NCBI RefSeq assembly: GCF_900108295.1
Contig: NZ_FNWK01000001.1
Coordinates: 992,001 to 1,056,000 of the forward strand
Reading direction: 5' to 3'
Length of the DNA stretch: 64,000 nt
Source: Sphingopyxis sp. YR583
GTDB lineage: Bacteria > Pseudomonadota > Alphaproteobacteria > Sphingomonadales > Sphingomonadaceae
Shown here: one piece after another, positions 45,748 through 61,638 of the stretch
Layout of the letters: each line of letters begins with the position of its first letter
How positions within the stretch are numbered: the first letter of the stretch is position 1
Translations under genes and position numbers: made by a program
The notes under the pieces: model-generated
What the model was told of the DNA's origin: nothing
What the model saw: only the letters and a program-made list of their open reading frames with translations
Databases searched by the model: none

Positions 45748-46097
45748 ATCTTCTCCCAATGACAAACGCTCTGCGGCGCTCTCGGTCCGGGATTTGTGCT
45801 CAAAACTTCCGGTTGTCAACAGTCATTAATACATGAATTAATAACATGATCATTTCAATTTTTCCGCAAAAATCCGATAAAGATCCCCATAAATTCGGTT
45901 ATGTCTCAAGTCACATTTTCACTCATTAATATTGTAGTGAATTTCTCGATTCGATGATAACCCTTGCTGCGACTCGCAACATAGCGGGACCGGGAGAGAC
46001 AGATGCCTTGCCACGGCCGATCGGCGTGCGAGCCTGCACGCGCACAGTTCACATGCCTTGCTCCACCGACAGAAACCCCTGTCCAGCGAGCCCGATC
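45748..46097. promoter_or_regulatory. AT-rich divergent spacer between TonB receptor and GH1 genes
   Basis: 350 bases without a gene. The part from 45820 to 45960 is far richer in A and T than the rest of the window and holds the inverted repeat TTCACT-N12-AGTGAA (45918-45923 and 45936-45941), plus repeated ATTAAT motifs between 45826 and 45842. It must contain both divergent promoters and is the natural place for the operator of the TetR regulator or another factor. No pair of -35/-10 boxes stood out enough to mark. Confidence 0.5.
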
Positions 46098-47435: not shown

Positions 47436-47752
47436 TGGCGCCGGGCTGGCGTGCGGCGGGCTGGCGCGCGGCGGCGCCCTTGCTGCCGATCCTCCTCGCG
47501 GGCTGCGACGCCGGCCCCTCCCACGATGCTGAGACACCCGCCGCGGTGACCGTCCAGGCTGTCCCGCAGGTCGAAAGCGCCAGACCGGCTCCCGTGCGCG
47601 CAACCGCGCCGCCGGCGCTGCCGACCCCCGAAAACCGTCCCCCGCTCACAGAAATGGCACCGCAAAAGCCATTCACCGACCCGCCGCTGCCGCGCGAACT
47701 GCTCGACGACGGCGACCTCATCCCGCTGCCCTCCCCACCCCAACGCAGATGA
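47432..47752 (+). CDS. Small proline-rich lipoprotein
   Basis: 106 residues. The hydrophobic segment AAAPLLPILLAGC ends in a lipobox, lipidating about residue 25; the rest is Pro/Ala-rich and probably unstructured, ending LPSPPQRR. Its ATG overlaps the GH1 stop codon as ATGATG/TGA, and an esterase gene follows 17 bases later. No family is recognised. It may anchor or assist the exported glycosidase, but only position supports this. Confidence 0.65.
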   Translation: MMAPGWRAAGWRAAAPLLPILLAGCDAGPSHDAETPAAVTVQAVPQVESARPAPVRATAPPALPTPENRPPLTEMAPQKPFTDPPLPRELLDDGDLIPLPSPPQRR

Positions 47753-47769
47753 ACAAGGAAGGAGAGGAT

Positions 47770-48714
47770 ATGATCCGTTCGCTTTTCAAGGCCCTGCGCG
47801 TTGCGCTGGTCGCGTGGCTTGCCGTCTGGGCCGCGTCAGCGGTGCCGGCATCGGCCGCCCCCTGCGCAAGCAATTGCCTGCAACCCGGCGACCACACGAT
47901 ATGGACATGGTCGGGCGGATTGCTTCGCTCCTATCTGGTCCATGTTCCCGAGAGCTATACGGGGCAGGACGACGTCCCATTGCTGCTCGACCTCCATGGG
48001 TTCAGCAGCTACGCCGCCGACGAGCGCAAATGGTCGGGCCAACTGCGCGAATCCGATCGACGCGGTTTTATCGCTGTCTGGCCTGACGGCATGGCATTGA
48101 GCTGGAATGCCTATGGCTGCTGCTTCCTCGGCAATGCATTGATGGTCGACGATGTCGCGTTCCTGCGCACCGTCATCGGCGAGGTGAAGCGCCGGTCCAA
48201 CATCGACGACGGCCGCGTCTATGTCACCGGCATCTCGAACGGCGGCGGAATGGCCCAGCGCATGGCGTGCGAGGCGGCGGACATCGTCACCGCCGTGGTG
48301 TCGATCTCGTTTCCGCTCAACAGCAACCAGTGCCGTCCCGCACGACCGGTCAGCGTGACCGCAATCGCGGCGACCGGCGACGGCACGATCAACTATTATG
48401 GCAATTCGCCGCCGCTGGGCCTTCCGAACGTGTTGCTTGGCATACCTCTTGGCGTCCAGGGCGCCCGCGAAAGCCTCGCCTCGTGGAAGCGGATCGACGG
48501 CTGCAGCGACGAATTGACGCGCGTCCAGCTCAGGGACGATGTCAGGCTCGAGGAATATCGCGACTGCCGCGGCGGAACACGTGCCGGTCTGGTGACGATC
48601 ACCGGCGGAACTCACGTCCTTTACAGCGGCTATGTCGGTCTCGGCTATACCGGCGATTATGTCGCACCCATCGATGTTGCGTCGTACATGTGGGATAACG
48701 TCTTCACGTATTGA
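47770..48714 (+). CDS. LpqC/PHB-depolymerase-type secreted esterase
   Basis: 314 residues. A signal peptide (MIRSLFKALRVALVAWLAVWAASAVPASA) precedes an alpha/beta domain of the LpqC/esterase-PHB family: LLLDLHGFSSYAADE is the oxyanion strand, YVTGISNGGGMAQRMACEAAD the nucleophile elbow (GISNGG), and TITGGTHVLYSG the catalytic histidine. This family includes feruloyl esterases, acetylxylan esterases and poly(3-hydroxybutyrate) depolymerases. Cysteine pairs fit a periplasmic location. The ATG at 47770 follows GGAGAGGAT; an ATG at 47749 overlaps the lipoprotein gene and is less likely. With the GH1 enzyme it fits an acylated or feruloylated glycoside as substrate. Confidence 0.87.
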   Translation: MIRSLFKALRVALVAWLAVWAASAVPASAAPCASNCLQPGDHTIWTWSGGLLRSYLVHVPESYTGQDDVPLLLDLHGFSSYAADERKWSGQLRESDRRGFIAVWPDGMALSWNAYGCCFLGNALMVDDVAFLRTVIGEVKRRSNIDDGRVYVTGISNGGGMAQRMACEAADIVTAVVSISFPLNSNQCRPARPVSVTAIAATGDGTINYYGNSPPLGLPNVLLGIPLGVQGARESLASWKRIDGCSDELTRVQLRDDVRLEEYRDCRGGTRAGLVTITGGTHVLYSGYVGLGYTGDYVAPIDVASYMWDNVFTY

Positions 48715-48823: not shown

Positions 48824-48864
48824 TTTTTTATCCAATTGCGCCGAAGCCTCTAGCCGCCTATCAT
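48824..48864 (+). promoter_or_regulatory. Promoter of the GntR gene with an operator half-site
   Basis: The 13-mer TTTTTTATCCAAT (48824-48836) recurs exactly at 49634-49646. It touches a promoter candidate TTGCGC (48836-48841), 17-base spacer, TATCAT (48859-48864). The left half of the palindrome (TTGGAT) is not conserved here. The placement suggests autoregulation of the GntR gene, whose GTG lies 30 bases after the -10 box. Confidence 0.6.
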
Positions 48865-48893
48865 TGACCGGAAGGAACAAGCGGGGAAGTTCG

Positions 48894-49610
48894 GTGAAAA
48901 AGCCGGAAAAGAGGCAGCCGAAAATCGTCAGCCGCGTAAAGATCGCGGATGCGGTCACAGATGAAATCCGCCAGCTCATCCTGTCCGGCGAGATCGCCGA
49001 CGGGTCGCCCTTGCGGCAGGACGCGCTGGCCGAGCAGATGGGAACGAGCAGGATCCCGGTGCGCGAGGCGCTTTCGCGGCTCGAAAGCGAAGGCCTTGTC
49101 GCCAGCTTCCCGCACAAGGGATATGTCGTCACCGGCCTGTCGCGCAGCGATATCGAAGAGCTCTTTGATCTGCGCACAATGCTCGAACCCGACCTCATCC
49201 GCCACGCCATCGCAAATATGACCGAGGATGACCTTGCCATCGCCACGTCGATCCTCGCCGAATATGATGCCGCGCTGCTGACCGGCGATGTCGACACCTG
49301 GGGCGACCTCAACCGGCGATTCCATATGGCACTCTACGCCCCGTCCGGCCGCAGCAAGACGCTCGACATCGTCCGCGGTCTGCTCGTCAACGCCGACCGC
49401 TACACGCGGCTCGTGCTGACGGTCGGATATGGCATCGACAAGGCGCAGGAAGATCATGGCGGCCTGCTCGACCTCTGCAGGCGCGGGCTGGTCAACCAGG
49501 CGGTGGCGCTGACCCGCGACCATATCGAACGCACAGGCGCCGACCTGCTCGAAATGCTCGATGCGCGCGACCGCGAGGACGACGGAAAAATAGCCACCGC
49601 GGTGGCCTGA
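48894..49610 (+). CDS. GntR/FadR-type (FCD) transcriptional regulator
   Basis: 238 residues. The N-terminal winged helix reads RVKIADAVTDEIRQLILSGEIADGSPLRQDALAEQMGTSRIPVREALSRLESEGLVASFPHKGYVV, the standard GntR pattern. The C-terminal FCD domain (about 95-230) has metal-ligand candidates in NRRFHMALY (Asp/Arg-x-x-x-His), and the late EDHGGLLDLC and RDHIERTG. It would bind a carboxylate, often an organic or amino acid. The GTG at 48894 follows GGGGAAG. Three DNA sites with core TTTTATCCAAT lie upstream of this gene, of the next operon and between the TonB receptor and S12 genes, so it likely governs 48.9-61.6 kb. Confidence 0.93.
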   Translation: MKKPEKRQPKIVSRVKIADAVTDEIRQLILSGEIADGSPLRQDALAEQMGTSRIPVREALSRLESEGLVASFPHKGYVVTGLSRSDIEELFDLRTMLEPDLIRHAIANMTEDDLAIATSILAEYDAALLTGDVDTWGDLNRRFHMALYAPSGRSKTLDIVRGLLVNADRYTRLVLTVGYGIDKAQEDHGGLLDLCRRGLVNQAVALTRDHIERTGADLLEMLDARDREDDGKIATAVA

Positions 49611-49628
49611 ACGCCAATCAAAAAGATG

Positions 49629-49657
49629 TTGGATTTTTTATCCAATAATCCTATTAT
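49629..49657 (+). promoter_or_regulatory. Palindromic operator on the promoter of the reductase operon
   Basis: TTGGAT (49629-49634), five T, ATCCAA (49640-49645) is a perfect palindrome. Its left arm is also a -35 box: 17 bases further lies TATTAT (49652-49657), matching TATAAT in five of six positions. A regulator bound here would block RNA polymerase. Transcription would start near 49664, giving a leader of about 40 bases for the ATG at 49703. Confidence 0.75.
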
Positions 49658-49702
49658 CTTCCCGCTATGGGAGATCACGCGCTTACGCGATCATATTCAG
49701 GC

Positions 49703-50632
49703 ATGAAAACGATCGGCGCCGCGCAAGTCGCCGGCGCCTTGCCCCTTGCGGCGCTCGTCGATCATCTGGCCATCGCGCTGCGCAGACCGGCCGCGGCGCC
49801 GCTGCGGCTTGGCGTGTCGCGCCAAACCGGCCGCGAACTGCTCGTCATGCCCGCGATGGCCGATCGGTATGCCGGCGTGAAGATATTGACCGTCACGGCG
49901 GACAATGGGGCGAACGGCCTCCCCGTGATCGGCGGGCTGTTCATCCTGATCGATACCAGGACCGGCGAGACGCTCGCCATACTCGATGCCGAAGAGCTGA
50001 CCGCGCGCCGCACCGCGGCGATCTCGGCGCTCGCATCACGCGCGCTTTCGCGCCCCGACGCCCGTCATCTGCTGCTGCTCGGAACCGGACATCTCGCTCC
50101 CTTTCTCGCTGAAGCCCATGCCGTGGTGCGCCCCATCGATACCGTCGAGGTCTGGGGCCGCTCGGCCGCCAAGGCTGAACACACCGCGGCTGAAGTCCGT
50201 CGGCGCTTGCCCGATGCCAAGGTGACCATTGCCGACGATCTGGCAGCAGCCGCGGGACGTGCCGACATCATCTCCGCCGCAACGCGCGCAACCGAACCGC
50301 TGATCCGCGGCGACTGGGTGCAGCCGGCAACCCACGTCGATCTCGTCGGCGGCTATCGGCCCGACATGCGCGAGATCGACGACGAGGGCGTTCGCCAGTC
50401 GGTGATCTATGTCGACACGATCGAGGGCGCGCTCGCCGAGGCCGGCGACCTTCGCACCCCGCTCGAACAGGGCGTGATCGCACGGCATGCGATCCGCGGC
50501 GACATCGGCGCCCTCGTCGGGGGCGACCTGGTGCTCCCCGCCGGAACGCGCACGCTGTTCAAGTCAGTCGGCACCGCGCTGGCCGATCTCGCCGCGGCTG
50601 AGCTGGTCTGGGAAAAGATCGGTGAGTTCTAG
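49703..50632 (+). CDS. Ornithine cyclodeaminase / mu-crystallin family reductase
   Basis: 309 residues. The family is NAD(P)H-linked: members deaminate ornithine to proline or reduce cyclic imines (pyrroline- or piperideine-2-carboxylate, ketimines) or N-alkyl imino acids. The Rossmann motif is LLLLGTGHLAPFLAEA, preceded by GGLFILIDTRTGETLAILDAEELTARRTAAISALAS, the family signature with the conserved arginine and T-A-A-x-S. The ATG at 49703 matches the usual M-K-x-I-x-A start; an ATG at 49667, very near the predicted transcription start, would give a leaderless start. It is followed, overlapping by 11 bases, by a D-amino-acid-oxidase-like flavoprotein, which could make or consume the same imine. 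Confidence 0.9.
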   Translation: MKTIGAAQVAGALPLAALVDHLAIALRRPAAAPLRLGVSRQTGRELLVMPAMADRYAGVKILTVTADNGANGLPVIGGLFILIDTRTGETLAILDAEELTARRTAAISALASRALSRPDARHLLLLGTGHLAPFLAEAHAVVRPIDTVEVWGRSAAKAEHTAAEVRRRLPDAKVTIADDLAAAAGRADIISAATRATEPLIRGDWVQPATHVDLVGGYRPDMREIDDEGVRQSVIYVDTIEGALAEAGDLRTPLEQGVIARHAIRGDIGALVGGDLVLPAGTRTLFKSVGTALADLAAAELVWEKIGEF

Positions 50633-51860
50633 ATCGACCGTCGTCGTCGGCGCGGGCATCGTCGGGTTGGCGGCAGCGGTCGAGGCGCAACGGCGCGGTG
50701 ACCGCGTCACGCTGTTCGATGCGGCCGATCCTGGCATGGGCTGTTCCTTCGGCAATGCCGGGATTATCGCGGCATCCGAAATCTTCCCGCTGATTACCCC
50801 GGGCCGCATCGCCAGCCTGCCGCGGATGCTGCTGGCCCGCGACGCGCCGGCGGTCATCCGCGCTGCGGCGCTGCCGCAGCTGATGCCGTGGATGATGCGC
50901 GCCGCGACGACGCTGTCAGCGCGGCGACAGGATGCGATCACGCACGCCATTGCCGCACTCAACGGCCGTGCGGTCGCGGCGTGGCGCGACCTGCTCGCGC
51001 ATTGCGGCCGGCCGGACCAGTTGCGCGAAAAAGGCATGATCCGGCTGATCCGCGATCCGCAAGACCGTACGGAGCTCGACGATGTCCGGATGCGCCTTGC
51101 GCAGCACGGCCTGCCGTCGCGTCGGCTCGATCGGGACGACTTGCTGGCGCTCGAACCCGCACTGGGCAAGGCGGCAACCGCCGGCCTGCTCCACGAAAGC
51201 GACGCCGACATCGGCGAGCCGCTAGCGCTGAGCCGGAGCCTGCTCGCCCGTTTCCGCGAAGCCGGCGGAAGCGTGATCCGCCAACGCGTGCTGACGATCG
51301 GATGCGACGACACCGCCGCCCTACTCGTCACCGACGCCGGTTCCCACCGCGCCGACCGGATTTTGATTACCACAGGTCTCGCATCGGGGGCGCTGCTGCG
51401 GCCACTCGGCGCAGCCGTCCCCCTTCAGGCCGAGCGCGGCTATCACCTCGCGCTGCCCGGCCTTGGCAGCCTGCTCTCGCGGCCCGTCACCTTCCAGCGC
51501 GAATCCTGCGTTGCAACCCCGATGGACGGCGCGCTGCGCCTAGCCGGAACGGTCGAGTTTGCCGACGCCGCCGCGCCGCCCGACTGGCGGCGCGCGCATA
51601 GCCTCGCAGCTTTTGCCGGTCGCTATTTCGACGACATGCGTCTCTCCGCAGACCCCGAAGTCTGGCTGGGTAGTCGCCCCTCGCTCCCCGACTCACTGCC
51701 GGCGATCGGCCGTCTCGCCGCGATGCCGCGGATCGGATATGCCTTTGGCCATCAGCATCTCGGAATTACGCAAGCGGCGGTTTCGGCACAACTCCTCTGC
51801 GGCATCATGGCCGGCGAACCGCCGTTCGACCCGGCGCCTTACGACCTCGCGCGCTTCTGA
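50622..51860 (+). CDS. FAD-dependent D-amino-acid dehydrogenase-like (DadA/DAO) oxidoreductase
   Basis: 412 residues starting at a GTG within the end of the reductase gene, with GGGAAAAG upstream. The FAD loop is VVVGAGIVGLAAAVEAQRRG at the extreme N-terminus; GMGCSFGNAGIIAASE is the DadA-type flavin motif; RSDRILIT-type and GSRPSLPDSLPAIGRL near the C-terminus, then FGHQHLGITQAAVSAQLL, complete the DAO fold. DadA-group enzymes oxidise D-amino acids, D-hydroxyproline or N-alkyl amino acids to imino acids. Substrate is undefined. It lies in an operon with a cyclodeaminase-family reductase, and its end faces an MBL-fold hydrolase gene with only four bases between. Confidence 0.9.
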   Translation: MSSRSTVVVGAGIVGLAAAVEAQRRGDRVTLFDAADPGMGCSFGNAGIIAASEIFPLITPGRIASLPRMLLARDAPAVIRAAALPQLMPWMMRAATTLSARRQDAITHAIAALNGRAVAAWRDLLAHCGRPDQLREKGMIRLIRDPQDRTELDDVRMRLAQHGLPSRRLDRDDLLALEPALGKAATAGLLHESDADIGEPLALSRSLLARFREAGGSVIRQRVLTIGCDDTAALLVTDAGSHRADRILITTGLASGALLRPLGAAVPLQAERGYHLALPGLGSLLSRPVTFQRESCVATPMDGALRLAGTVEFADAAAPPDWRRAHSLAAFAGRYFDDMRLSADPEVWLGSRPSLPDSLPAIGRLAAMPRIGYAFGHQHLGITQAAVSAQLLCGIMAGEPPFDPAPYDLARF

Positions 51861-51864
51861 CGCG

Positions 51865-52821
51865 TCAGGAACCGATCCACGGCAGCGTCGTCCCGATATC
51901 CATCTGGTCGTTGACGCGATAGCGTTTTGGGAAGAAGCCCTCACCCTTGAGCGTACCGGCATCGATCCCGCCCAAAGCGCGATCGAGGTCGGCCAGATCC
52001 TTCATCGTCAGCCACGGCGCGGCATAGCCTTCTTCGCGGCGACAGCAATGCGCGGCCCAGAGGCGGGTTTCGGGAGGAAGCTCTTTCAACAGACGCTGCG
52101 CCGTACGCCGATATTCACCCCTGTTCGCGCCGGGCAGGAAGGCATAGAGCATCGTCGGATAGATATAGTCGCCGGTGAACAGCCGGCCGCCGGCCGCGTC
52201 ATAGAGCGAAACCGATTGCGGCGTATGCCCGGGCGTCGACAGCAGGCGCAACGTCCGCCCGCCAAGGTCGATCGTCGCGCCGGGTTTGATCCATTCGGCG
52301 ACTTCGAACGCCGGCGTCTCCAGACCGTCGAACATGCCGAGGAACTGATAGCGGCCGGGGCGGAAGCGGTTGCCGTCGGCATCGGCGCGGGTCGCCGGCA
52401 GGTCGACGATCGCGACGCGGTCGCCATCCTTGATCCCGGCGAGATGGTCATAGTGCAGATGCGACGGCAAGATTGTCACGGGGCGGTCGGTCAGCCCCTT
52501 GACCACCGGGCGCATATCGCGCGTGCCCGAGCCCGCGTCGAACAGCAGCGCGCGCTTGTCGCCGACGATCAGGTAGGAATAATTCGCCTGATAATAGCGC
52601 GGCTCGCCGATCGCATAAACGCCATGCCCCAGATCCTCGACAGCGAAATAGTCGTCCGCCATCCGGCCCTTGGCGATCCTGGCCGGTTCGGGCGACATCA
52701 CCGTTGCCGGATCGTTCAGCAGCGGCCAGCTTTCGGCATAGATATAGGGCGCGAACCGCGCGGCGGCGATCCCCGCCAAGGCTACCACCGCAAGCGACAC
52801 CAGAATAGCACGACGCGTCAT
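51865..52821 (-). CDS. Exported metallo-beta-lactamase-fold hydrolase
   Basis: 318 residues. A hydrophobic N-terminal segment (about 5-23) acts as signal or anchor. The MBL fold shows the metal motif HLHYDHLAG (H-x-H-x-D-H), a downstream histidine in LLSTPGHTPQSVSLYD, the aspartate in RLFTGDYIYP, and AAHCCRREEGYAAP with the last histidine. This set binds two metals in lactonases, glyoxalase II and related hydrolases, so thioester, lactone or lactam hydrolysis is possible. It is transcribed toward the flavoprotein gene and lies downstream of the second TonB receptor gene on the same strand (52 bases apart), so it is likely part of that transcript. Confidence 0.88.
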   Translation of the reverse strand: MTRRAILVSLAVVALAGIAAARFAPYIYAESWPLLNDPATVMSPEPARIAKGRMADDYFAVEDLGHGVYAIGEPRYYQANYSYLIVGDKRALLFDAGSGTRDMRPVVKGLTDRPVTILPSHLHYDHLAGIKDGDRVAIVDLPATRADADGNRFRPGRYQFLGMFDGLETPAFEVAEWIKPGATIDLGGRTLRLLSTPGHTPQSVSLYDAAGGRLFTGDYIYPTMLYAFLPGANRGEYRRTAQRLLKELPPETRLWAAHCCRREEGYAAPWLTMKDLADLDRALGGIDAGTLKGEGFFPKRYRVNDQMDIGTTLPWIGS

Positions 52822-52873
52822 TCATCCCCCCCTGCAGGAAAAGGCCCCGCCCCTGCGGGCGAGGCCTATCGGA

Positions 52874-55282
52874 TCAGAAGCTTTTCGTGAAGCGCAGGCC
52901 GACCCGCCGCGGCGGCGCGACCGAGGTGGAGAAGCGGCGGAAATAGACGGTATTGCCGCCCGCATTGACCACATTCTGGTTGTAGAGCGCCGAATCCCGG
53001 ACGCCGATTTCGGCATATTCGTTGAAGATATTGTCCGCATAAAGCGTGACCGAATAACCGGCATCCTTGTTGACGAGGCCGATCCGCGCGTAGCTGATCG
53101 AATAGGACGGCAGCGTCAGGCTGCCACCCCGTCCCCCCGTCGTGGTGAGCACGTTGCCCGAGAAAGTGCTGCTCCAGCCCATGTCGAGGTCGAGCGAATT
53201 GCTGACCGGCGTCGTATAGGACAGCGACACGCTGCCGCGATGCTTGGCCGATCCCGGCAGGCGATCGCCCTTTTGCCCGTCGATATAGACGGTATCGAAT
53301 CCCGGCGGTGCGATCGTGGCGATCAGGTTGGGCGACAATTCGTCGAGCTGCGCATCGGTATAGGCATAGCTGCCCTGCAGGCGAAGCCCCTCGGCCAACC
53401 GCGCATCGAGGCTGAGCTCGACCCCCTTGCTCGACGCGCCATTGCCGTTGACGGTGATCCCCACCTGTCCGACCTGCGTCGCCGAACCGATCTGGACATC
53501 CTTCCAGTCGACATAGAAAAGCGCGCCGTTGAGCGTCAGACGCCGGTCGAAAAGCTCGGTCTTCAGCCCGATTTCATAGTTGGTCGTCGTATCGGGCTTA
53601 TAGGCCAGTTCGTTTGGCTGGCCGCACACGAAGACGTCCACCGGCAGCGGCGTCGGGCACGGCGACACGCCGTTCGAATTGCCGCCGCGATAGCCCTGAC
53701 TGACCGTCAGATAGCCGAGGATGTCAGGCGAGAATTTATACGACATGTTGAACTTGCCGAGCACGCCGTCGTCCTTCTGGCCGCCCGGCGTAGCCGGGAA
53801 GAACGCCGGCCCTGAAGGGGGGACCGGGCCAAAGGCGAACTGCGCCGAGGTGACCAGGTCATATTTATAATAGCGCCCGCCGACCGTCACATTGAGCGCG
53901 TCGGTGAGGTCATAGGAAAGCTCGCCATAAACGGCATATTCCTCGCGCTTGCGCAGATCGAGCGAGATATAGTCGCGCAGATCGCCGGTGTAGAATCCGG
54001 GGATCAGCTCCGCATAATCGATGCGCTGCTTATATTTGTTGTAGAAACCGCCGATCGCCCAGTTGAACGGGCCGCCGCCGGTCGAAACGAGGCGCAGCTC
54101 CTGATTGATCCGCTCTTCCTTGACGCGTTCATCGGTGTAGTCGACGAGCGGATCGAAGTTTTCGTATCCAAAACCGAGCTGGATCGCGAGGTCGGTCTGG
54201 TCGCGCTGCGCCCGCGAACGATAGTCCGAATAGCTCGATGCAGAGGTCAGCTTGGCAAAGCCGAGATCGAAACTGGCTTCCAGTGCCACCAGTTGATTGT
54301 CGCGCTTCGACGGTTCCTCGACGCGCAGCGCCGATTCATATTTGCCGATCGTGACGGGCAGATTGGTCAGCCGCGCCGACGAAGACTGGCGGCCGCCGCT
54401 GTCCTGAAACTGGAAATAATAGGTAAGGTTGAGGTCGATGGCGTCCGACGGCTGCCAGCGCGCGGCCACCCGGCCCGACCAGGTGTCCTCATAGTTCACA
54501 TCCTTGACGCGCCGGAAATTCGCTTCGCGCCCGGCCGGGGTGGCCAGCGCATTCGGCAGCGACACGCCCGGCGTCTGCACGACATAAGGCTGGTCAATGA
54601 AACCTGAATCCTCGAGCCGGTCGAGCGATGCCCGGAGCGCGAGATTGGACGCGACCGGAATGTTGATCGTCGCTCCCGCATCGAAGCTCGCCGAACCCGC
54701 CGAATCATATTTATAGACGTCGCCGCGCACATCGAGCGAGAAGGCGTCGAACTGCGGACGGCGCGGAATATAGCGGATTGCGCCGCCCAGCGTGCCGGCG
54801 CCATAGAGCGTGCCCTGCGGCCCGAGCAGCACCTCGATGCGCTCCATGTCGTTGAGCTTCAGCTCGATGAACACCGGCGTTTCACCGAGGTAGGTCGCGA
54901 CCGTGCCGCCGCCATCATTGCCGACGTCGTTGGCGCGGAGCGGTTCGGCGTTCAGGCCGCGCACAATGATCTGGCTGGCGCCGCGCGAGCCCTGGTCGAT
55001 GATGCTGATCCCGGGAACGGCGCGGGTCGCTTCCGCGATCGAGCTCAGACCTTCGCGTTCGAGCTGGTCGCCCGTGACGGCCGCAATGTTGATCGGCGTA
55101 TCCTGGACCGTCGTTTCGCGGCGCGTCGCCGTGACGACAATCTCGTTCGGATCGGCGTCGCTCGACGCCCCCTGCGCCATCGCCGCGGCCGGCATCATTG
55201 CCGACAACAGGACGCCGCCAGCGGCGGACCCCATCAGTCCGATCCGGATGGTGCGGCGGTTCGCGGTGCGCAGTCTTGACAT
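52874..55282 (-). CDS. TonB-dependent receptor (second)
   Basis: 802 residues. The start MSRLRTANRRTIRIGLMGSAAGGVLLSAMMPAAAMA is a long signal peptide, then DPNEIVVTATRRET is the TonB-box region and plug start. The plug has VRGLNAEPLRANDVGNDGGGTVATYLGETPVF and IEVLLGPQGTLYGAGTLGGAIRYI. The barrel ends PPRRVGLRFTKSF with terminal phenylalanine. GGGGGA precedes the ATG. The many Asp/Asn-rich loops fit uptake of a polar organic compound. It is divergent from the S12 hydrolase gene across a 158-base spacer that holds an imperfect copy of the GntR operator, so it is likely induced with the catabolic genes. Confidence 0.93.
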   Translation of the reverse strand: MSRLRTANRRTIRIGLMGSAAGGVLLSAMMPAAAMAQGASSDADPNEIVVTATRRETTVQDTPINIAAVTGDQLEREGLSSIAEATRAVPGISIIDQGSRGASQIIVRGLNAEPLRANDVGNDGGGTVATYLGETPVFIELKLNDMERIEVLLGPQGTLYGAGTLGGAIRYIPRRPQFDAFSLDVRGDVYKYDSAGSASFDAGATINIPVASNLALRASLDRLEDSGFIDQPYVVQTPGVSLPNALATPAGREANFRRVKDVNYEDTWSGRVAARWQPSDAIDLNLTYYFQFQDSGGRQSSSARLTNLPVTIGKYESALRVEEPSKRDNQLVALEASFDLGFAKLTSASSYSDYRSRAQRDQTDLAIQLGFGYENFDPLVDYTDERVKEERINQELRLVSTGGGPFNWAIGGFYNKYKQRIDYAELIPGFYTGDLRDYISLDLRKREEYAVYGELSYDLTDALNVTVGGRYYKYDLVTSAQFAFGPVPPSGPAFFPATPGGQKDDGVLGKFNMSYKFSPDILGYLTVSQGYRGGNSNGVSPCPTPLPVDVFVCGQPNELAYKPDTTTNYEIGLKTELFDRRLTLNGALFYVDWKDVQIGSATQVGQVGITVNGNGASSKGVELSLDARLAEGLRLQGSYAYTDAQLDELSPNLIATIAPPGFDTVYIDGQKGDRLPGSAKHRGSVSLSYTTPVSNSLDLDMGWSSTFSGNVLTTTGGRGGSLTLPSYSISYARIGLVNKDAGYSVTLYADNIFNEYAEIGVRDSALYNQNVVNAGGNTVYFRRFSTSVAPPRRVGLRFTKSF

Positions 55283-55317
55283 GACAATCCCCCAATGGCT
55301 AACAGTCGATCTGCGTT

Positions 55318-55335
55318 TAGGACATTTTATCCAAT
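55318..55335. promoter_or_regulatory. Imperfect copy of the GntR operator between receptor and S12 genes
   Basis: TAGGAC-ATTTT-ATCCAA (55318-55334, followed by T) matches the perfect palindrome at 49629-49645 in four of six left-arm and all six right-arm positions, with the same five-base spacing. It sits in the spacer between divergent genes, where one bound regulator could control both. Confidence 0.6.
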
Positions 55336-55440
55336 TTTGAAATGAAAAATTTCCCCACCCCGTTGTTGACGGCGTAGCAAAGGGAAAGCTGGTCAAAGAA
55401 GACGGCGCACACCGCGCGATCGGATGGGAGGCAGAGGCTG

Positions 55441-56922
55441 ATGTCGACTCGGCGGGAATTCCTGAAAACGGGCGCGGCGCTTGTCGCAGCTGGCGGCGTC
55501 GCGACCCCGCCGGTGGCAATGGCAGCGACCTCAGCAGCGGCCTCAAGGGCATCGGACAGCGCGCCGACAGTCGATTTCGTCGCTGCGCTGCGCGCCGCGG
55601 TCGACGCGCATCGCATCACCGGAGCTTCCTTTGCCTATTGGGACGGCAGCACGCTGCACAGCGCCGTGGCCGGGCTCCGTAACAGCGTCACCGGCGATCC
55701 GGTCACCCCCGACACGCTGATGCACGTCGGCTCGATCACCAAGGTCGCCAATGCCACGCTGGTGATGCAGCTCGTCGACGACGGGCTGATCGCCCTCGAC
55801 GATCCGGTCCTCAAGCATATCCCCGAACTGCGCACCCGCGACATGGACGCGCTCGGCCGCGTCACCTGCAAGATGCTGATCAATCACAGCAGCGGGATCG
55901 ACGGCGAATGGCTGCCCGAATATGGCCCCGACCAGGAACGCATCGTCGACACGATCAACCGTTGCGCCGGTCTCGGCCAGTTGTTCGCACCGGGTACGGA
56001 GACGTCGTACAACAATGTCGCGACGGTGATCGCCGGCTATCTGACGCAGAAACTGCGCGGCGAGAGCTGGTACACGCTCGTCAGGAAGCGCATCTACGAA
56101 CCGCTCGGCATGGCGCATGCCCTCGTCGATCCGCTCGACGTGCCGCGCTTCCGGACCAGCATCGGCGATCTTACCGACTATACGACGGGCAAGATGTTCC
56201 AGACCAGGCGGCCCTTCCTCGCGCCAAGCTTTGCCCCGGCCGGCGCGACGCAGATGACCACGGCGACCGACCTCGTCGACTTCGCGCGCGCGCTGATCGG
56301 CGGCGGGGTCGGCACCAACGGCACGCGCATCCTGTCGGAAGCATCGGCGCGGGCGATGATCACCAAGACCAGCGAATATGTAAGCATGGGCGTCGAATCG
56401 CATGGCTATGGGCTAGGCTGGAGCATCCAGCCCGGCGGGCTCGTCAGCCATGGCGGCGGCGGGCCGGGCGTGCGGTCGATGCTCGTCGCGCATCCCGCCA
56501 CCGGGCGCGTCGCGGCGTTGCTGACCAATTGCGATCGCGGCGACGCGCTGATGGACGCGTTTCTGAATCCGGTCACGCGCGGCTGGACCGGCCTCAAACC
56601 CCCTGCCCCGTTGCAGCGGAGCAGCAAGCGCATCGATTCCGCGCGCTATGTCGGCACCTATGAGAATAACGCCGATCGCTATGTGATCGCCGCCGCAGCG
56701 GGTGGGCTGACGCTGCGGACCTATGACAAGATCGGGACCTACGACAACTCGGATATGGAAAAGCCGGCGCTGAAACTGGCGTCGATGGGCGATGGCCTGT
56801 TCGAACGGCCATCGTCCTTCGCCGGCGTCCAGCCGGGATTGCTCCGCTTCGTAAAGCCGGGCCCCGACGGCAAGGCCCGCTTCCTCGCGGATGGAGGACG
56901 GCTCCTTGCCCGCGTCGGCTGA
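55441..56922 (+). CDS. Tat-exported S12 family serine hydrolase (beta-lactamase/D-aminopeptidase fold)
   Basis: 493 residues. The start MSTRREFLKTGAALVAAGGVA is a Tat signal. The penicillin-binding fold shows SITK (S98-K101) as the S-x-x-K motif, SYNN as Y-x-N and SHGGGGP as the K-T-G equivalent H-x-G, so all three catalytic elements are present. A C-terminal domain of about 100 residues (from PPAPLQRSSKRIDSARYVGTYENN) has a lipocalin-like beta character, as in D-aminopeptidase/esterase EstB relatives. The group includes D-aminopeptidases, D-amino-acid amidases and esterases. It overlaps the M19 gene by 32 bases and likely acts in the periplasm on what the divergent TonB receptor imports. Confidence 0.9.
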   Translation: MSTRREFLKTGAALVAAGGVATPPVAMAATSAAASRASDSAPTVDFVAALRAAVDAHRITGASFAYWDGSTLHSAVAGLRNSVTGDPVTPDTLMHVGSITKVANATLVMQLVDDGLIALDDPVLKHIPELRTRDMDALGRVTCKMLINHSSGIDGEWLPEYGPDQERIVDTINRCAGLGQLFAPGTETSYNNVATVIAGYLTQKLRGESWYTLVRKRIYEPLGMAHALVDPLDVPRFRTSIGDLTDYTTGKMFQTRRPFLAPSFAPAGATQMTTATDLVDFARALIGGGVGTNGTRILSEASARAMITKTSEYVSMGVESHGYGLGWSIQPGGLVSHGGGGPGVRSMLVAHPATGRVAALLTNCDRGDALMDAFLNPVTRGWTGLKPPAPLQRSSKRIDSARYVGTYENNADRYVIAAAAGGLTLRTYDKIGTYDNSDMEKPALKLASMGDGLFERPSSFAGVQPGLLRFVKPGPDGKARFLADGGRLLARVG

Positions 56923-58003
56923 TCCCTGCCGCCGCGCCGTCCTGAGTGGCGCACTCGCGGCGGGGGCCGCGATCAGCCTCCCCGGCGGCGCGTTCGCCAA
57001 GGCAAGGCCGGCGGGGCAGCGGATCGTCGTCAACGGTCTCGACCCCTCGGCACGCTCGCCCGAATTTCTCGCGATGCTCCGCAAGGGCGGCGTCGATTGC
57101 TGGCACCAGAGCGTCGGCGACGACTTCGCGTCCTTCGCCAGCCTGTTCCGCTTCTTCGACGAGAACAAGGCCGAGATCGGTCAGGCGCGCAGCGTGCGCG
57201 ACATCCGGCGCCTCAAGAGCGAAGGGCGCCTCTCGCATATCGCGGGTTGGCAGTCGGCGGGCGGACTGATCGTCGGCGGCGAGCCCCAACTCGGAAATCT
57301 GCGCGCCTATCGGGAAGTTGGCCTCCGCATCTGCGGCATATCCTATAATCTCGCCGACCCGTTCGGCGGCGGTTGCCTCGAACCCGACACCGGGCTGACC
57401 CGCGCCGGGCACCGGCTGGTCGAGGCGATCCACAAGGAAAATCTTGTCCTCGACATCGCCGGGCACACGAACGAGAAAACCTCCTTCGCCGCGCTCGCCG
57501 TCTCGTCGGGCGTCCCCGTCATCTGCAGCCACACCAATGTGCGCGCCCTCAACGATAATCCGCGCTGCACCACCGACGCGATGTTCGAGGCGATTGCCAG
57601 GACCGGCGGCGTGGTCGGCGTCACCGCGTTCAGCGACTTCCACGTCCGCAAGGCGAGCGATGCGAAGCTCGTCCGCTCGCCGCAGGCAAGCCTCTACCGG
57701 CATCTCGACCAATATGACTATCTGAAACGGCTGATCGGTATCGATCACATCGGCCTCGGCCCCGATTTCCTCGAAGGTCGCAACAATGACGTCGGGCCGC
57801 TGACCCAGGCCGACGTGATCCTGATGGCGCCCGAAGCCTATACGCAGGAATTGCCGTGGGATTATGTCAAGGGCTTCGAAAATATCGGCAAATTGCCGAA
57901 TGTCGTGACGGGGCTCGCGCAGCGCGGCTGGACCGACGACGAACTGCGCAAGCTGACCGGCGACAACTGGCTGCGCATCTACGAAGCGGTGTGGGGAGAA
58001 TAG
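56891..58003 (+). CDS. Membrane-dipeptidase-like (M19 family) protein with altered metal site
   Basis: 370 residues. A Tat/Sec-like leader (DPCRRAVLSGALAAGAAISLPGGAFA) precedes an amidohydrolase barrel. The C-terminal M19 motifs are recognisable: LVLDIAGHTNEKT and VPVICSHTNVRALNDNPR hold the two family histidines, and GIDHIGLGPDFLEG the aspartate. The N-terminal H-x-D motif (DGHNDLP in renal dipeptidase) reads VVNGLDP, and the bridging glutamate segment (G-x-E-G/N-G) reads AGWQSAGG. Two of five metal ligands are therefore missing. Activity with another metal or a non-peptidase role is possible. The ATG has no ribosome site; a TTG at 56906 lies eight bases after GGAGG and may be the real start. 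Confidence 0.87.
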   Translation: MEDGSLPASADPCRRAVLSGALAAGAAISLPGGAFAKARPAGQRIVVNGLDPSARSPEFLAMLRKGGVDCWHQSVGDDFASFASLFRFFDENKAEIGQARSVRDIRRLKSEGRLSHIAGWQSAGGLIVGGEPQLGNLRAYREVGLRICGISYNLADPFGGGCLEPDTGLTRAGHRLVEAIHKENLVLDIAGHTNEKTSFAALAVSSGVPVICSHTNVRALNDNPRCTTDAMFEAIARTGGVVGVTAFSDFHVRKASDAKLVRSPQASLYRHLDQYDYLKRLIGIDHIGLGPDFLEGRNNDVGPLTQADVILMAPEAYTQELPWDYVKGFENIGKLPNVVTGLAQRGWTDDELRKLTGDNWLRIYEAVWGE

Positions 58004-58006
58004 ACG

Positions 58007-59302
58007 ATGTCCGCGGAAGGGGCAGCGCCGGTTGCGGCGTCGAGGAAGCAGGTCGCCGGGGTGTGCCTCGGCAACGCCATCGAATTCTACGATTTCGTCA
58101 CCTATGCCTATTTCGCGGCGCAAATCGGGCGGACCTTCTTTCCGTCCGACACGCCGGGGCTCAGCTTGCTCGCGTCGCTCGCGACCTTCGGCGTCGGCTT
58201 CCTGACCCGGCCACTCGGCGCGATCCTGCTCGGACGGTTCGCCGACCGGGTCGGCCGCAAGCCGGCGATGCTGGTCTCTTTTGGCCTGATGGGGTTTGCG
58301 TCGCTCGCGCTGCCGCTCATTCCGTCCTACGCCGCAATCGGCGTCGCCGCGCCGGTGATGGTGGTGCTCTGCCGCCTGATCCAGGGCTTCGCGGTCGGCG
58401 GCGAGGTCGGCGCCGCGACCGCCTTCCTGATGGAAGCGGCCCCGGCGAACCGGCGCGGCCTCTATACCTCGCTGCAGGCGATGAGTGCTGACCTCTCGGC
58501 CCTGACCGCCGGCATTATCGGGCTGCTGCTCTCGTCGCTGATGAGCGACGCGATGCTCGACGCATGGGGCTGGCGCATCGCCCTGCTGCTCGGCGCGGTG
58601 ATCATCCCGATCGGCCTCGTCCTGCGGCGCACCCTCGTCGAAACGCTCCATCCCGAAGCCGCGAACGATCCGGTGGAGATCGCCGTCAGCTATCGCCGCG
58701 TCGCGATCGCCGGGGTGTGCCTCGTAGCGGCGGCGACGACGACCAACTATCTGCTCAAATATATGACGACATATGCCAGCGCGACGCTGGGCATGACGAC
58801 CCAGTTCGCCTTCGGCGCGACGGTGGTGGTTGGCGTCTGCGGCGCCATCTGCGCGCCGCTCGCCGGATCGCTGTCGGACCGCATCGGGCGCAAGCCGGTG
58901 ATGCTGGTGCCGTGGATCGCCCTCGCCCTCGCCGTCTTTCCCTGTTTCGAACTGCTCGAACAGCAACGGACGGCAACCGCGCTCTATGTTGCCTGCGCGA
59001 TCCTCGCGATCTGTTCGACCTTCGCCTCATCGGTCTTCTTCGTCGTGATCGCAGAATCGCTGCCGCAGCGCGTGCGCTCGGGCGCACTCGGCCTGATCTA
59101 TGCGCTGGCGGTATCGGTGTTCGGCGGGTCGGCGCAATTTACCGTCGCCTGGCTGACCCAGTTGAGCGGTAGCCCGATGACCCCGGCCTGGTACATGATT
59201 GGCGGCGTGATCATCGGCCTGATCGCCATGTATTCGATCCCGGAAACAGCGCCGGTCAAACGTGCGCGCCTCGCGGCGCACGACACGGGAGCAAATGCAT
59301 GA
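58007..59302 (+). CDS. MHS family (ProP-like) MFS transporter
   Basis: 431 residues with 12 predicted transmembrane segments. LGNAIEFYDFVTYAYFAAQIGRTFFP is the metabolite:H+ symporter (MHS) start, where E-x-Y-D-F is diagnostic; GVGFLTRPLGAILLGRFADRVGRKPAML holds motif A, and LIQGFAVGGEVGAATAFLMEAAP motif B. Relatives carry proline, betaine, shikimate, alpha-ketoglutarate or citrate. It would import the hydrolysis product of the two upstream exported hydrolases. GGGGAGAATAGACG precedes the ATG, three bases after the M19 stop, and the last bases overlap the TSUP gene as ATGA. Confidence 0.92.
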   Translation: MSAEGAAPVAASRKQVAGVCLGNAIEFYDFVTYAYFAAQIGRTFFPSDTPGLSLLASLATFGVGFLTRPLGAILLGRFADRVGRKPAMLVSFGLMGFASLALPLIPSYAAIGVAAPVMVVLCRLIQGFAVGGEVGAATAFLMEAAPANRRGLYTSLQAMSADLSALTAGIIGLLLSSLMSDAMLDAWGWRIALLLGAVIIPIGLVLRRTLVETLHPEAANDPVEIAVSYRRVAIAGVCLVAAATTTNYLLKYMTTYASATLGMTTQFAFGATVVVGVCGAICAPLAGSLSDRIGRKPVMLVPWIALALAVFPCFELLEQQRTATALYVACAILAICSTFASSVFFVVIAESLPQRVRSGALGLIYALAVSVFGGSAQFTVAWLTQLSGSPMTPAWYMIGGVIIGLIAMYSIPETAPVKRARLAAHDTGANA

Positions 59303-60189
59303 TCCCGTCGCTCACCCACATTATTCTTGCCGCACTGAGCCTCATTGCGATCTGGTTCGCAGTCCGCTGGTGGAAGCTTGAACGGCGCAATGCCGAAACG
59401 CCCCCCGCCGGGCGCCGCCCCGGTCCGGTTGATCTGGCCATTGGTTTCGTCGCCAATTTCTTCGACACGCTCGGCATCGGCTCCTTCGCCTCGACAACGG
59501 CGGCTTTCAAACTCTCCGGCCATGTGGCGGATGAAAAAATTCCCGGCACGCTTAACGTCGGCCATGCGCTGCCGACGATTACGCAGGCGTTGATCTTTAT
59601 CGCGATCGTTTCGGTCGATCCGGCAACGCTGATCGGGATGATCGTCGCAGCGGTCGCAGGAGCCTGGCTCGGCGTCGGTTTCGTCGCCCGCCTGCCGCGG
59701 CGCGCCATCCAGATCGGCATGGGCGTTGCGCTGCTCTGCGCCGCAATCCTGTTCCTTGTCAGCCTGCTCGGGCTGATGCCGGGCGGCGGCGTTGCGGAGG
59801 GGCTGGAAGGTGCGAAGCTGGCCCTTGCGGTTGCGGTGAGTTTTCTGCTCGGTGCGCTGATGATGCTCGGCGTCGGGCTGTATGCGCCGTGCCTCATTCT
59901 CGTCAGCCTGCTCGGCATGAACCCGCTCGTCGCCTTCCCGATCATGATGGGCTCGTGCGCCTTTCTGATGCCGGTGGGCGGCGCTCGCTTCGTCGCCAGC
60001 GGCCGCTACAGCCTGCCCGCGGCACTCGGGCTCGCAGTGGGAGGCGTCCCGGCGGTGCTGATTGCCGCCTATCTGGTCAAGTCGCTACCGCTCGACTGGC
60101 TGCGCTGGCTGGTGGTGATCGTCGTCGCCTACGCTGCAATCAGCATGCTCTGGTCGGCGCGGCGCGATACGCCTGCCACCGCCCCTTAA
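59299..60189 (+). CDS. TSUP (TauE/SafE) family permease
   Basis: 296 residues with eight or so transmembrane segments in two repeats. PGPVDLAIGFVANFFDTLGIGSFASTTAAFKL and LLGALMMLGVGLYAPCLILVSLLGMNPLVAFPIMMGSCAFLMP are the paired TSUP signatures. Family members export sulfite, sulfoacetate or other sulfonates, or import organic sulfur or carboxylates. It overlaps the MHS carrier gene by four bases and lies 33 bases before the aldehyde dehydrogenase gene. An aldehyde dehydrogenase paired with a TSUP exporter is the arrangement of SafD and SafE in taurine-degrading Neptuniibacter, where sulfoacetaldehyde is oxidised and sulfoacetate exported; whether that holds here is open. Confidence 0.87.
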   Translation: MIPSLTHIILAALSLIAIWFAVRWWKLERRNAETPPAGRRPGPVDLAIGFVANFFDTLGIGSFASTTAAFKLSGHVADEKIPGTLNVGHALPTITQALIFIAIVSVDPATLIGMIVAAVAGAWLGVGFVARLPRRAIQIGMGVALLCAAILFLVSLLGLMPGGGVAEGLEGAKLALAVAVSFLLGALMMLGVGLYAPCLILVSLLGMNPLVAFPIMMGSCAFLMPVGGARFVASGRYSLPAALGLAVGGVPAVLIAAYLVKSLPLDWLRWLVVIVVAYAAISMLWSARRDTPATAP

Positions 60190-60222
60190 TCCCAGTTCAC
60201 AGATCGAAACAGGAGGGCCGCT

Positions 60223-61638
60223 ATGCGTGACCATCGGAATTTGTACATCGACGGCGTCTGGTTGGCGCCCACCGAAGCCGGAGTTATCGATGTCATCGAT
60301 CCCGCCACCGAGCAGGTCGCGGGCCGGATCGCCGCAGCCGGTCCCGCGGACGTCGATCGCGCCGTCGCCGCGGCGCGGCGCGCCTTTGCGAGCTGGTCGA
60401 CGACGACGCGCGAAGAGCGGCTCGCCCTGCTAGGGCGTATCGTGGCGGAATATCGCCGGCGCGAGGCCGACATTGCCGCGGCGATCACTCTCGAAATGGG
60501 CGCCCCCGCCGCGCTCGCCGCCGGCGGGCAGACGAAAAGCGGGCTGTCGCATTTCGAAGCCGCGATCAAGGTGCTGACCGACTATGTCTTCGAGGAACAG
60601 CGCGGCACCACGCGCATCTGCAAGGAAGCGATCGGCGTCTGCGGGCTGATTACGCCGTGGAACTGGCCGATGAACCAGGTCGCATGCAAGGTCGCACCGG
60701 CGCTTGCCACCGGCTGCACCATCGTCCTCAAACCATCGGAAGTCGCGCCTTTTTCCGCGATTGTCTTTACCGAGATTCTCGATGCCGCTGGGGTTCCGCC
60801 CGGAGTCTTCAACCTCGTCAACGGCGGCGCCGACACCGGCGCGGCGATTGCCTCGCATCGCGACGTCGACATGGTTTCCTTTACCGGATCGACGCGCGGC
60901 GGGGTCGCGGTCGCCATCGCCGCGGCGCCGACGGTCAAGCGGGTGGCGCAGGAGCTTGGCGGAAAATCGCCGTTCATCCTCCTGTCCGGCGCAGATTTCC
61001 CGAAAGCCGTTGGCGTGGCTGTGCGCCATGTGATGAACAATTCCGGCCAGTCGTGCAACGCACCGACCCGCATGCTCGTCCCCGCGGCGCGCATGGACGA
61101 GATCACCGCACTCGCCCGCGAAGAGGCCGCGAAGGTGACGGTCGGCAGCCCCGCAAGCGACGCCGTGATCGGCCCCGTCGTCTCGCAATTGCAGTGGCAA
61201 CGCATCCAGCAACTGATCGAAAAAGGCATCGCAGAGGGCGCAACGCTGGTCGCCGGCGGCCCCGGCAAACCCGATGGTCTGGAAACCGGCTATTATGTCC
61301 GCCCGACGGTTTTCGCCGACGTCACCTCCGACATGACGATCGCGCGCGAAGAGATCTTCGGCCCGGTCTTGTCGATCATTGGCTATGACGATCCCGACGA
61401 TGCCGTATGCATCGCCAACGACACCGATTATGGCCTCGCGGCCTATCTGTGGGGCGGTGACGGTGACGACCTGCCCGGCGTCGCCGCGCGCATCCGCGCC
61501 GGGCGGATTTCGATTAACGGATCGGCTGGCGACATTCTCGCGCCGTTCGGCGGCTACAAGATGAGCGGTAACGGCCGCGAGTGGGGAGAATATGGTTTCG
61601 ACGAATTCGTCGAGTTGAAGGCGGTGCTTGGCGGTTAG
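60223..61638 (+). CDS. NAD(P)+-dependent aldehyde dehydrogenase
   Basis: 471 residues, full length. The glutamate general base is in VAQELGGKSPFILLS and the catalytic cysteine in NNSGQSCNAPTRML; GVCGLITPWNWPMNQVACKVAPALATGCTIV and FTGSTRGG form the cofactor-binding part, and EEIFGPVLSIIGYDDPDDAV closes the domain. It would oxidise an aldehyde from amine or amino-acid catabolism in the cytoplasm. AGGAGGGCCGCT precedes the ATG. It is the last gene of the run S12, M19, MHS, TSUP, ALDH. No specific aldehyde can be named; succinic semialdehyde, betaine aldehyde and sulfoacetaldehyde types are all compatible. Confidence 0.92.
   Translation: MRDHRNLYIDGVWLAPTEAGVIDVIDPATEQVAGRIAAAGPADVDRAVAAARRAFASWSTTTREERLALLGRIVAEYRRREADIAAAITLEMGAPAALAAGGQTKSGLSHFEAAIKVLTDYVFEEQRGTTRICKEAIGVCGLITPWNWPMNQVACKVAPALATGCTIVLKPSEVAPFSAIVFTEILDAAGVPPGVFNLVNGGADTGAAIASHRDVDMVSFTGSTRGGVAVAIAAAPTVKRVAQELGGKSPFILLSGADFPKAVGVAVRHVMNNSGQSCNAPTRMLVPAARMDEITALAREEAAKVTVGSPASDAVIGPVVSQLQWQRIQQLIEKGIAEGATLVAGGPGKPDGLETGYYVRPTVFADVTSDMTIAREEIFGPVLSIIGYDDPDDAVCIANDTDYGLAAYLWGGDGDDLPGVAARIRAGRISINGSAGDILAPFGGYKMSGNGREWGEYGFDEFVELKAVLGG

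Follow-up and report, generated by a model that had tools for sequence, protein, structure and literature searches.

A GntR-linked gene block in Sphingopyxis with a predicted role in the use of peptides containing cyclic D-imino acids

In Pseudomonas putida, D-proline and D-lysine are reportedly (Muramatsu, 2005) used by oxidation of the D-imino acid, followed by a Delta1-piperideine/pyrroline-2-carboxylate reductase that gives the L-form. According to PMC5343134, the HypR regulons of various taxa, mostly Gammaproteobacteria, include OCD genes as well as genes for TonB receptors, MFS carriers, proline peptidases and also collagenases, and OCD-superfamily proteins with measured proline-ketimine reductase activity are on record in PMC4113996. 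Here we describe a block of ten genes at positions 48,894-61,638 of a 64,000-nucleotide stretch of DNA (the window; G000:C1:992001-1056000), which is part of the 4.3-Mb genome of Sphingopyxis sp. YR583. The theme of this block is already known, and it appears to be a side branch of the known hydroxyproline-degradation genes, not an entirely new system. We favour the explanation that it is a dedicated regulon for peptides containing a cyclic D-imino acid, most likely D-proline, and give this about an even chance of being correct. Genomes and loci are cited by our own labels (G and L numbers, G000 being the genome of the window).

Content and conservation of the block

All ten proteins exceed the Pfam gathering score for their families, which are those named in the original prediction, an earlier reading of the same DNA made from its letters only. 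The genes are as follows.

48894-49610, +: GntR/FCD transcriptional regulator, apparent paralogue of the hydroxyproline-operon regulator, GTG start (PF00392 and PF07729)
49703-50632, +: putative OCD-family Delta1-pyrroline-2-carboxylate / Delta1-piperideine-2-carboxylate reductase, possible upstream ATG at 49667 (PF02423, OCD_Mu_crystall; NF004793/PRK06141)
50622-51860, +: putative FAD-dependent D-amino/imino-acid dehydrogenase of the HypO/LhpB branch (the flavoenzyme), GTG start (PF01266, DAO; tree)
51865-52821, -: metallo-beta-lactamase-fold (MBL) hydrolase with an HLHYDH motif and a hydrophobic N-terminus, probably exported or anchored judging by its translation (PF00753, Lactamase_B)
52874-55282, -: TonB-dependent outer-membrane receptor (PF00593 and PF07715, Plug)
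55441-56922, +: S12 serine hydrolase, predicted Tat-type export, with an RREFLK signal and SITK, YNN and HGG motifs (PF00144; translation)
56891-58003, +: M19-like protein, predicted Tat-type export, with a degenerate metal site (PF01244, Peptidase_M19; alignments)
58007-59302, +: MHS-type MFS importer (PF00083/PF07690; TIGR00883 at 332 bits, below the cut-off of 443)
59299-60189, +: TSUP (TauE/SafE) permease (PF01925)
60223-61638, +: aldehyde dehydrogenase (ALDH; PF00171)

The gaps in the run from the S12 to the ALDH gene are -32, +3, -4 and +33 bp, and the reductase and flavoenzyme genes overlap, which bears out the tight spacing originally claimed. The GntR gene and the reductase-flavoenzyme pair lie on the forward strand, as does the run from S12 to ALDH; with the MBL and TonB receptor genes on the reverse strand, the block needs three transcripts or more. 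A scan for the sigma-70 consensus was uninformative, with 3 promoter-like sites against 2.4 expected.

A second Sphingopyxis genome (G014) holds all ten genes in identical order and on identical strands at 79-95% identity, and the block therefore exceeds chance. The TonB receptor and TSUP genes of G014 are each in two pieces, by decay or assembly error. Its copy of the block has different immediate neighbours, as the LpqC-like gene upstream and the monoamine-oxidase-like gene downstream are both missing. Five flanking genes of the window (GH1-like, LpqC-like, a second TonB receptor, a carboxylesterase and monoamine-oxidase-like) were not found in the 19-kb G014 stretch, which extends past the block by ~2 kb on the upstream side and 4.4 kb on the downstream side and so truly tests only the nearest neighbours, LpqC-like and monoamine-oxidase-like.

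Across Sphingopyxis, all eight genomes with a flavoenzyme of at least 40% identity carry a reductase and an M19 gene within 12 kb of it. The co-occurrence proposed in the original prediction thus stands for flavoenzyme, reductase and M19; the regulator is not constant, as three of these genomes (G046, G072 and G051) have no GntR orthologue in the cluster. In the variant loci (L062-L067, L169 and L213) only the GntR, reductase, flavoenzyme, TonB receptor, S12 and M19 genes recur among the ten, and ALDH-family genes are present in L065, L066 and L213 only. The spread is patchy, with a flavoenzyme at E 1e-60 or better in 3 of the 397 family genomes drawn. Separate searches gave five pairs of M19-like and flavoenzyme relatives with equal lengths of their longest contig (44,944; 15,854; 13,833; 315,238; 1,131,412), from which we infer that each pair lies on one contig; both relatives of the 1,131,412 pair are named Sphingomonas sp. 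LT1P40. This suggests that the linkage extends beyond Sphingopyxis. In a search of 674 plasmid records all relatives were below 60% identity, two of them having hydroxyproline-type neighbourhoods (used as references) and two others lying in unrelated settings.

Around the block in the window, with families read from the translations, a family-1-glycosidase-like open reading frame (ORF) and an LpqC/PHB-depolymerase-like exported esterase lie directly upstream (45954-48714, +), and a Tat-type flavin monoamine-oxidase-like ORF lies downstream (62236-63678, -) with a third-position GC of 0.71, lower than that of the block genes (0.77-0.85). The variant locus L067 (G046:C11:4000-23500) is a large island with DUF1611, MR_MLE, Amidohydro_3, flavoenzyme, reductase, TonB receptor, DPPIV, S12, M24, M19 and MFS genes and an ECF sigma/FecR pair, in which we take the DUF1611 and MR_MLE genes to be of DgcN/DgcA type.

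The GntR regulator and its predicted operator

At E 1e-30 or better the regulator has 18 matches in 17 of 80 Sphingopyxis genomes. Five are orthologues (54-100%), which stand beside a flavoenzyme and a reductase, and 13 are paralogues (36-42%), every one of which lies within ~6 kb of a PF05544 hydroxyproline-epimerase-type gene. A 12-bp motif, WTTTTATCCAAT, was spotted by eye in intergenic stretches of the cluster, and motif scans place three predicted operators in the window:

48825-48836, +: copy 1 (TTTTTATCCAAT), upstream of the GntR gene, kept in L061
49635-49646, +: copy 2, overlapping a 6/5/6 inverted repeat (TTGGATTTTTTATCCAA), upstream of the reductase gene
55324-55335, +: copy 3 (ATTTTATCCAAT), between the divergent TonB receptor and S12 genes, kept in L061

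Genome-wide, exact copies of WTTTTATCCAAT number four in G000, three of them at block promoters, and all those of G014 (3/3), G041 (2/2) and G002 (2/2) are in the cluster, at the same three sites in G014 as in the window and at two sites in G041 and G002. Eight other genomes scanned contain no exact copy, among them G004, which has the GntR orthologue and a form of the motif with A for C, and the reversed pattern scored zero. When at most one mismatch is allowed, the window holds three copies of the 11-base core; the shuffle mean is 0.18, and none of 100 shuffles reaches 3. A wider motif, WTTTTATMCAAW, broadened once G004 had been seen, places 18 of 25 sites in-cluster across the six genomes with a GntR orthologue (in-cluster/total: G000 3/4, G014 3/3, G041 2/3, G002 2/3, G004 4/6, G413 4/6), versus 4 sites in total in 14 genomes without one and 12 sites of the reversed pattern in 20 genomes. 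As the motif was chosen post hoc on Sphingopyxis sequences, G413 is the sole independent test: this genome of another genus, picked by its flavoenzyme, has a GntR protein at 61% on the same contig as a flavoenzyme, reductase, M19 gene and TonB receptor, with four of its six genome sites in the cluster. In all, five genomes besides G000, including one from another genus, have the orthologous GntR together with WTTTTATCCAAT or a close form of it. GntR control of the block, as originally proposed for one joint system, is supported by these predicted sites.

Four hydroxyproline loci of Gammaproteobacteria (L099, L111, L137 and L142) have a related motif, ATTTTATACAAT, in the ~120 bp that precede the HypO gene. 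In locus L152 it is found elsewhere, and other matches (e.g. L098, L101, L119, L120, L135) lie away from HypO. The relaxed operator motif was not found in the 13 Sphingopyxis hydroxyproline-operon GntR loci, nor in L070-L073. The fourth copy of WTTTTATCCAAT in the genome of the window (C3:55697, position 7698 of L081, G000:C3:48000-64000) is ~450 bp from a 514-aa gene without a Pfam match; a TonB receptor gene and type II secretion genes come next, with a HipA-like pair on the opposite side. This copy could have arisen by chance or could mark a distant member of the regulon.

Candidate substrate and rival explanations

The flavoenzyme was placed in a tree of 91 rows, composed of 75 genome-contig loci (out of 80 such loci taken from 571 confirmed relatives), 11 Sphingopyxis stretches, 4 plasmid loci and the window, whose row label was assigned by hand; L063, L066, L085, L086, L087, L116 and L117 were left out as near-duplicates. 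By tblastn within 6.5 kb, 58 of the 91 rows are hydroxyproline-type loci (PF05544-type plus DHDPS or ALDH), 6 have a reductase and no PF05544-type gene, 4 have the PF05544-type gene only and 23 have none of these. The flavoenzyme of the window falls in a sphingomonad clade of seven (SH-aLRT 96 in this quick tree), six of which are reductase-linked, and the enzymes of the Sphingopyxis hydroxyproline operons (L070-L073) stand apart on a long branch. Some near relatives bear the source name 'D-hydroxyproline dehydrogenase'. Regulator and flavoenzyme are, judging by their sequences, paralogues of the hydroxyproline (HypR/HypO) system.

No PF05544 epimerase or DHDPS-family deaminase has a Pfam match among the ten block proteins. 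The genome of the window has a separate hydroxyproline operon at C1:1,529-1,535 kb (L072) with GntR, epimerase-type, deaminase-type, HypO-type and M24 genes, its Pyr4H2C deaminase-type copy lying at C1:1531235, and both pathways are present in G000, G014, G046 and G072. In G041, G002, G004 and G051 the flavoenzyme-reductase pair is present and no PF05544 gene was found; their best match to the hydroxyproline deaminase is at 29-32%, the level of second copies (30-32%) in hydroxyproline-positive genomes, where true copies match at 69-100%. G413 likewise has a deaminase match of 31% only, and its PF05544 gene is in two pieces. From this gene content, the flavoenzyme product in G041, G002, G004 and G051 presumably cannot enter the hydroxyproline route via known enzymes. 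The lack of epimerase and deaminase in the four genomes, together with the constantly nearby reductase, therefore points to D-proline (or a near relative) being converted via Delta1-pyrroline-2-carboxylate to L-proline. The reductase of the window, the only protein of its kind scanned against NCBIfam, scores 330.2 bits with the pyrroline/piperideine-2-carboxylate reductase model NF004793/PRK06141 (cut-off 322). Apart from the hydroxyproline operon, the genome of the window has a second PF05544 gene (G000:C1:94345-95325), and a split proline-racemase-family gene (G413:C184:23578-24530) lies ~5 kb from the G413 cluster.

In the pathway that we favour, the peptide would cross the outer membrane via the TonB receptor and be cleaved in the periplasm by the exported S12 and M19-like proteins, and the MHS carrier would bring in what is freed, be it the imino acid or a short peptide. 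Once in the cytoplasm, D-proline would be oxidised by the HypO-branch flavoenzyme to Delta1-pyrroline-2-carboxylate, which the OCD-family reductase would convert to L-proline for normal proline catabolism, two steps suggested by family, clade and constant pairing. The GntR/FCD protein would bind the WTTTTATCCAAT operators at the block promoters, a motif that comes from genome comparison, and is probably a repressor relieved by the imino acid. The outer-membrane import and imino-acid theme of the original prediction, whose candidate list included proline-imine peptides, are supported.

For the peptide step, a Pfam scan of parts of five distinct variant loci (L062, L064, L065, L067, L169) found DPPIV/S9, S15 or M24 genes together with S12 genes in L065, L067 and L169, an S12 gene (52% identical) plus an M20 gene in L064, and an M19 gene only in L062. 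DPPIV/S9, S15 and M24 have many proline-type members, and their presence in three of the five loci supports the theme of proline peptides. In the S12 protein, SITK, YNN and HGG match the SxxK, YxN and HxG/KTG motif set of S12 serine hydrolases. Both it and the M19-like protein have twin-arginine-like signals in their translations, the second R of the latter being conserved in at least 90% of 34 aligned sequences. The M19-like protein aligns only to positions 65-318 of the 319-position profile, and its Q121, H192, H214, R225 and D292 are invariant in 34/34 aligned sequences. Its closest solved relative is the amidohydrolase 2i5g of the PDB (118 bits), which has the same Gln for Glu. By the alignment, L064 and L067 likewise encode degenerate M19 proteins, whereas the Glu is retained in the M19 proteins of L062 and L065, which show HxC.

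Relatives of the M19-like protein were seen in several other settings. One at 51% (L074, G017:C1:1106000-1125000) adjoins an alanine-racemase-family gene, an S9-like hydrolase and an oligopeptide-binding protein, and the gene row of another at 51% (L076, G017:C4:238000-257000) includes a PQQ alcohol-dehydrogenase-type gene, an amidase, a DUF885 protein and a TonB receptor; M19-TonB pairing also occurs in L077 and L078. Further relatives lie beside DgcN/DgcA-like genes in L079 and L080, and an M19-like paralogue of G014 is split into two pieces that lie apart, of which one has an internal stop (C1:1291424-1293844).

Several points weigh against a dedicated D-proline peptide regulon. The substrate and all of its functional steps are read from homology and gene company, and the peptide step in particular from family names; S9, S15 and M24 include members of other specificities, and no proline-type peptidase was found in the window block, L062 or L064. 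ALDH, TSUP and MBL would fit nowhere in a bare D-proline pathway, and close relatives of MBL and TSUP were not found in the eight variant loci. The M19-like protein lacks three canonical metal ligands, with LDP at the HxD position and Gln at the Glu position, where we take the binuclear ligands of the family to be HxD, Glu, His, His and Asp. With these ligands lost, 'dipeptidase' is unproven, and the original description of M19 as a classic enzyme for D-peptides, while correct as to family, is weakened. The operator motif was selected after inspecting Sphingopyxis sequences, and the regulator is not constant, as G046, G072 and G051 have the enzyme pair with neither an in-cluster GntR orthologue nor an operator match. 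The clade member L084 (Sphingomonas sp. Root720) has no such reductase, M19 or GntR gene within 10 kb by tblastn, which counts against a strict pairing rule; the hydroxyproline-type rows do not form one clade (8 changes), and the tree has some long branches. Finally, NF004793 also covers piperideine-2-carboxylate, which leaves room for D-pipecolate or D-lysine.

This last point leads to a broader system for D-residue peptides, in which flavoenzyme and reductase would act on several D-amino acids, chiefly D-lysine or D-pipecolate via Delta1-piperideine-2-carboxylate. Besides the reductase model, which spans both imines, such breadth would fit the DUF1611, MR_MLE and Amidohydro_3 genes of L067, the relatives of the degenerate M19-like protein beside an alanine-racemase-family gene (L074) or DgcN/DgcA-like genes (L079, L080), and the Sphingopyxis isolates that appear with his, leu and lys in a D-amino acid catabolism table in PMC4912152. 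However, flavoenzyme and GntR regulator group with hydroxyproline-type proteins and proline-type peptidases occur in 3/5 variant loci, and we consider this breadth unlikely.

A second alternative is an accessory hydroxyproline route, in which the flavoenzyme would oxidise peptide-derived cis-4-hydroxy-D-proline and feed the separate hydroxyproline operon (L072) of its own genome. That operon, the HypO branch of the flavoenzyme and the naming of its near relatives agree with it. It is harder to reconcile with the four genomes that have the flavoenzyme-reductase pair without epimerase and deaminase, with a deaminase route that requires no reductase partner, and with columns in which the clade departs from the residue common in hydroxyproline-type rows (E53->S, E in 83% of these rows; F192->H, F in 93%; S292->F, S in 88%; R295->E, R in 97%), and we think it distinctly unlikely. 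The original prediction had hydroxyproline among its substrates; this is weakened by the separate operon and the four genomes; the latter also led us to reject hydroxyproline as the main substrate in the best reading.

A third alternative, which appears very improbable, is a pathway for opines, N-alkyl amino acids or sulfonate conjugates in which ALDH would make an acid for export by TSUP. Cyclodeaminase-family enzymes do occur in opine pathways, and TSUP adjoins ALDH in the block. Yet the known flavin opine dehydrogenases (OoxAB) are two-subunit enzymes with a BFD-like iron-sulfur domain, whereas the block has a single flavoprotein, one that groups with hydroxyproline-type enzymes, and neither a BFD domain nor a second subunit is matched by Pfam in its ten proteins; the opine reading and the opine-like or N-alkyl substrates of the original prediction were rejected accordingly. 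The sulfonate reading was rejected as well, because 18 family-level ALDH relatives (62-66%) elsewhere are accompanied, over 1.5 kb on each side, by neither MHS nor TSUP nor any further gene of the block, bar one weak TonB-receptor match. As to the alpha-ketoglutarate semialdehyde dehydrogenase of HypR-type regulons, the ALDH of the block meets no NCBIfam cut-off among the best 25 of its 41 matches and is 41% identical to the ALDH of an S. meliloti hyp-type cluster. That the genes are chance neighbours without a functional unit, as the missing MBL and TSUP relatives and the recurrence of only six of the ten genes in the variant loci (with ALDH-family genes in L065, L066 and L213) might suggest, is hardly credible and largely refuted by the ten-gene synteny with G014 and by operators that the two genomes share at three matching places.

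Significance and comparison with known systems

The new element is that this sphingomonad version has neither epimerase nor deaminase, and that its operator form is its own, its flavoenzyme clade divergent and its M19-like partner degenerate. A hydroxyproline regulator and dehydrogenase seem to have been taken over for a different imino acid. We tentatively put forward, as possible rather than probable, an undescribed sphingomonad pathway on peptides of D-proline (or another cyclic D-imino acid), in which a captured HypR paralogue would have lost the hydroxyproline branch and been rewired to D-to-L proline inversion, and the M19-like enzyme, with a reduced and perhaps single-metal Gln/His/His/Asp site, would be a new kind of peptidase or amidase in the M19 family. 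The favoured explanation offers a testable substrate class for sphingomonad genes otherwise labelled D-amino acid dehydrogenase, dipeptidase or beta-lactamase family, and the regulator with its 12-bp operator is a candidate biosensor. The M19-like branch is well conserved without the ligands that define the family, so the automatic name 'dipeptidase' is questionable.

The block would share with the P. putida D-proline/D-lysine route the same two steps, oxidation and then reduction of the cyclic imine, but the P. putida reductase is said to be of malate/lactate-dehydrogenase type, whereas that of the block is of OCD type and clustered with uptake and hydrolase genes. By family the block reductase belongs with the OCD-superfamily NAD(P)H reductases for Delta1-pyrroline-2-carboxylate described in PMC4113996; those stand beside proline-racemase-superfamily members, e.g. 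trans-3-hydroxyproline dehydratase, in contrast to a D-imino-acid flavoenzyme here. The M19-like protein matches the family of the M19 membrane dipeptidases and shares Gln for Glu with 2i5g, but lacks the HxD and Glu ligands of their binuclear site. The collagen utilisation cluster of Colwellia BB5, as given in PMC7883544, resembles the block in its TonB receptor, MFS carrier, peptidases, D-hydroxyproline dehydrogenase and OCD-type reductase, while the block differs in having no M9 collagenase (no Pfam match in its ten proteins), peptidyl-prolyl isomerase, epimerase or deaminase.

Among the listed matches in the literature on D-proline with TonB receptors or dipeptidases, on D-proline inversion and on Sphingopyxis D-amino acids, a coverage that takes in few subscription papers, none describes this cluster. 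The statement in the original prediction that no named pathway has this set went too far, as PMC5343134 already reports HypR regulons that contain peptidases, TonB receptors and OCD genes. One of the closest known systems is the HypR proline/4-hydroxyproline regulon (PMC5343134 and PMC3223726), which in various taxa likewise has an often autoregulated GntR-family regulator and a HypO-type flavoenzyme along with an OCD gene, a TonB receptor, an MFS carrier and peptidases. From these accounts the block differs in lacking hypE and hypD, in having the S12 and degenerate M19-like proteins in place of proline (di)peptidases, and in its sphingomonad flavoenzyme clade and its own operator form, which also differs from the Streptomyces HypR motif in PMC6608401.

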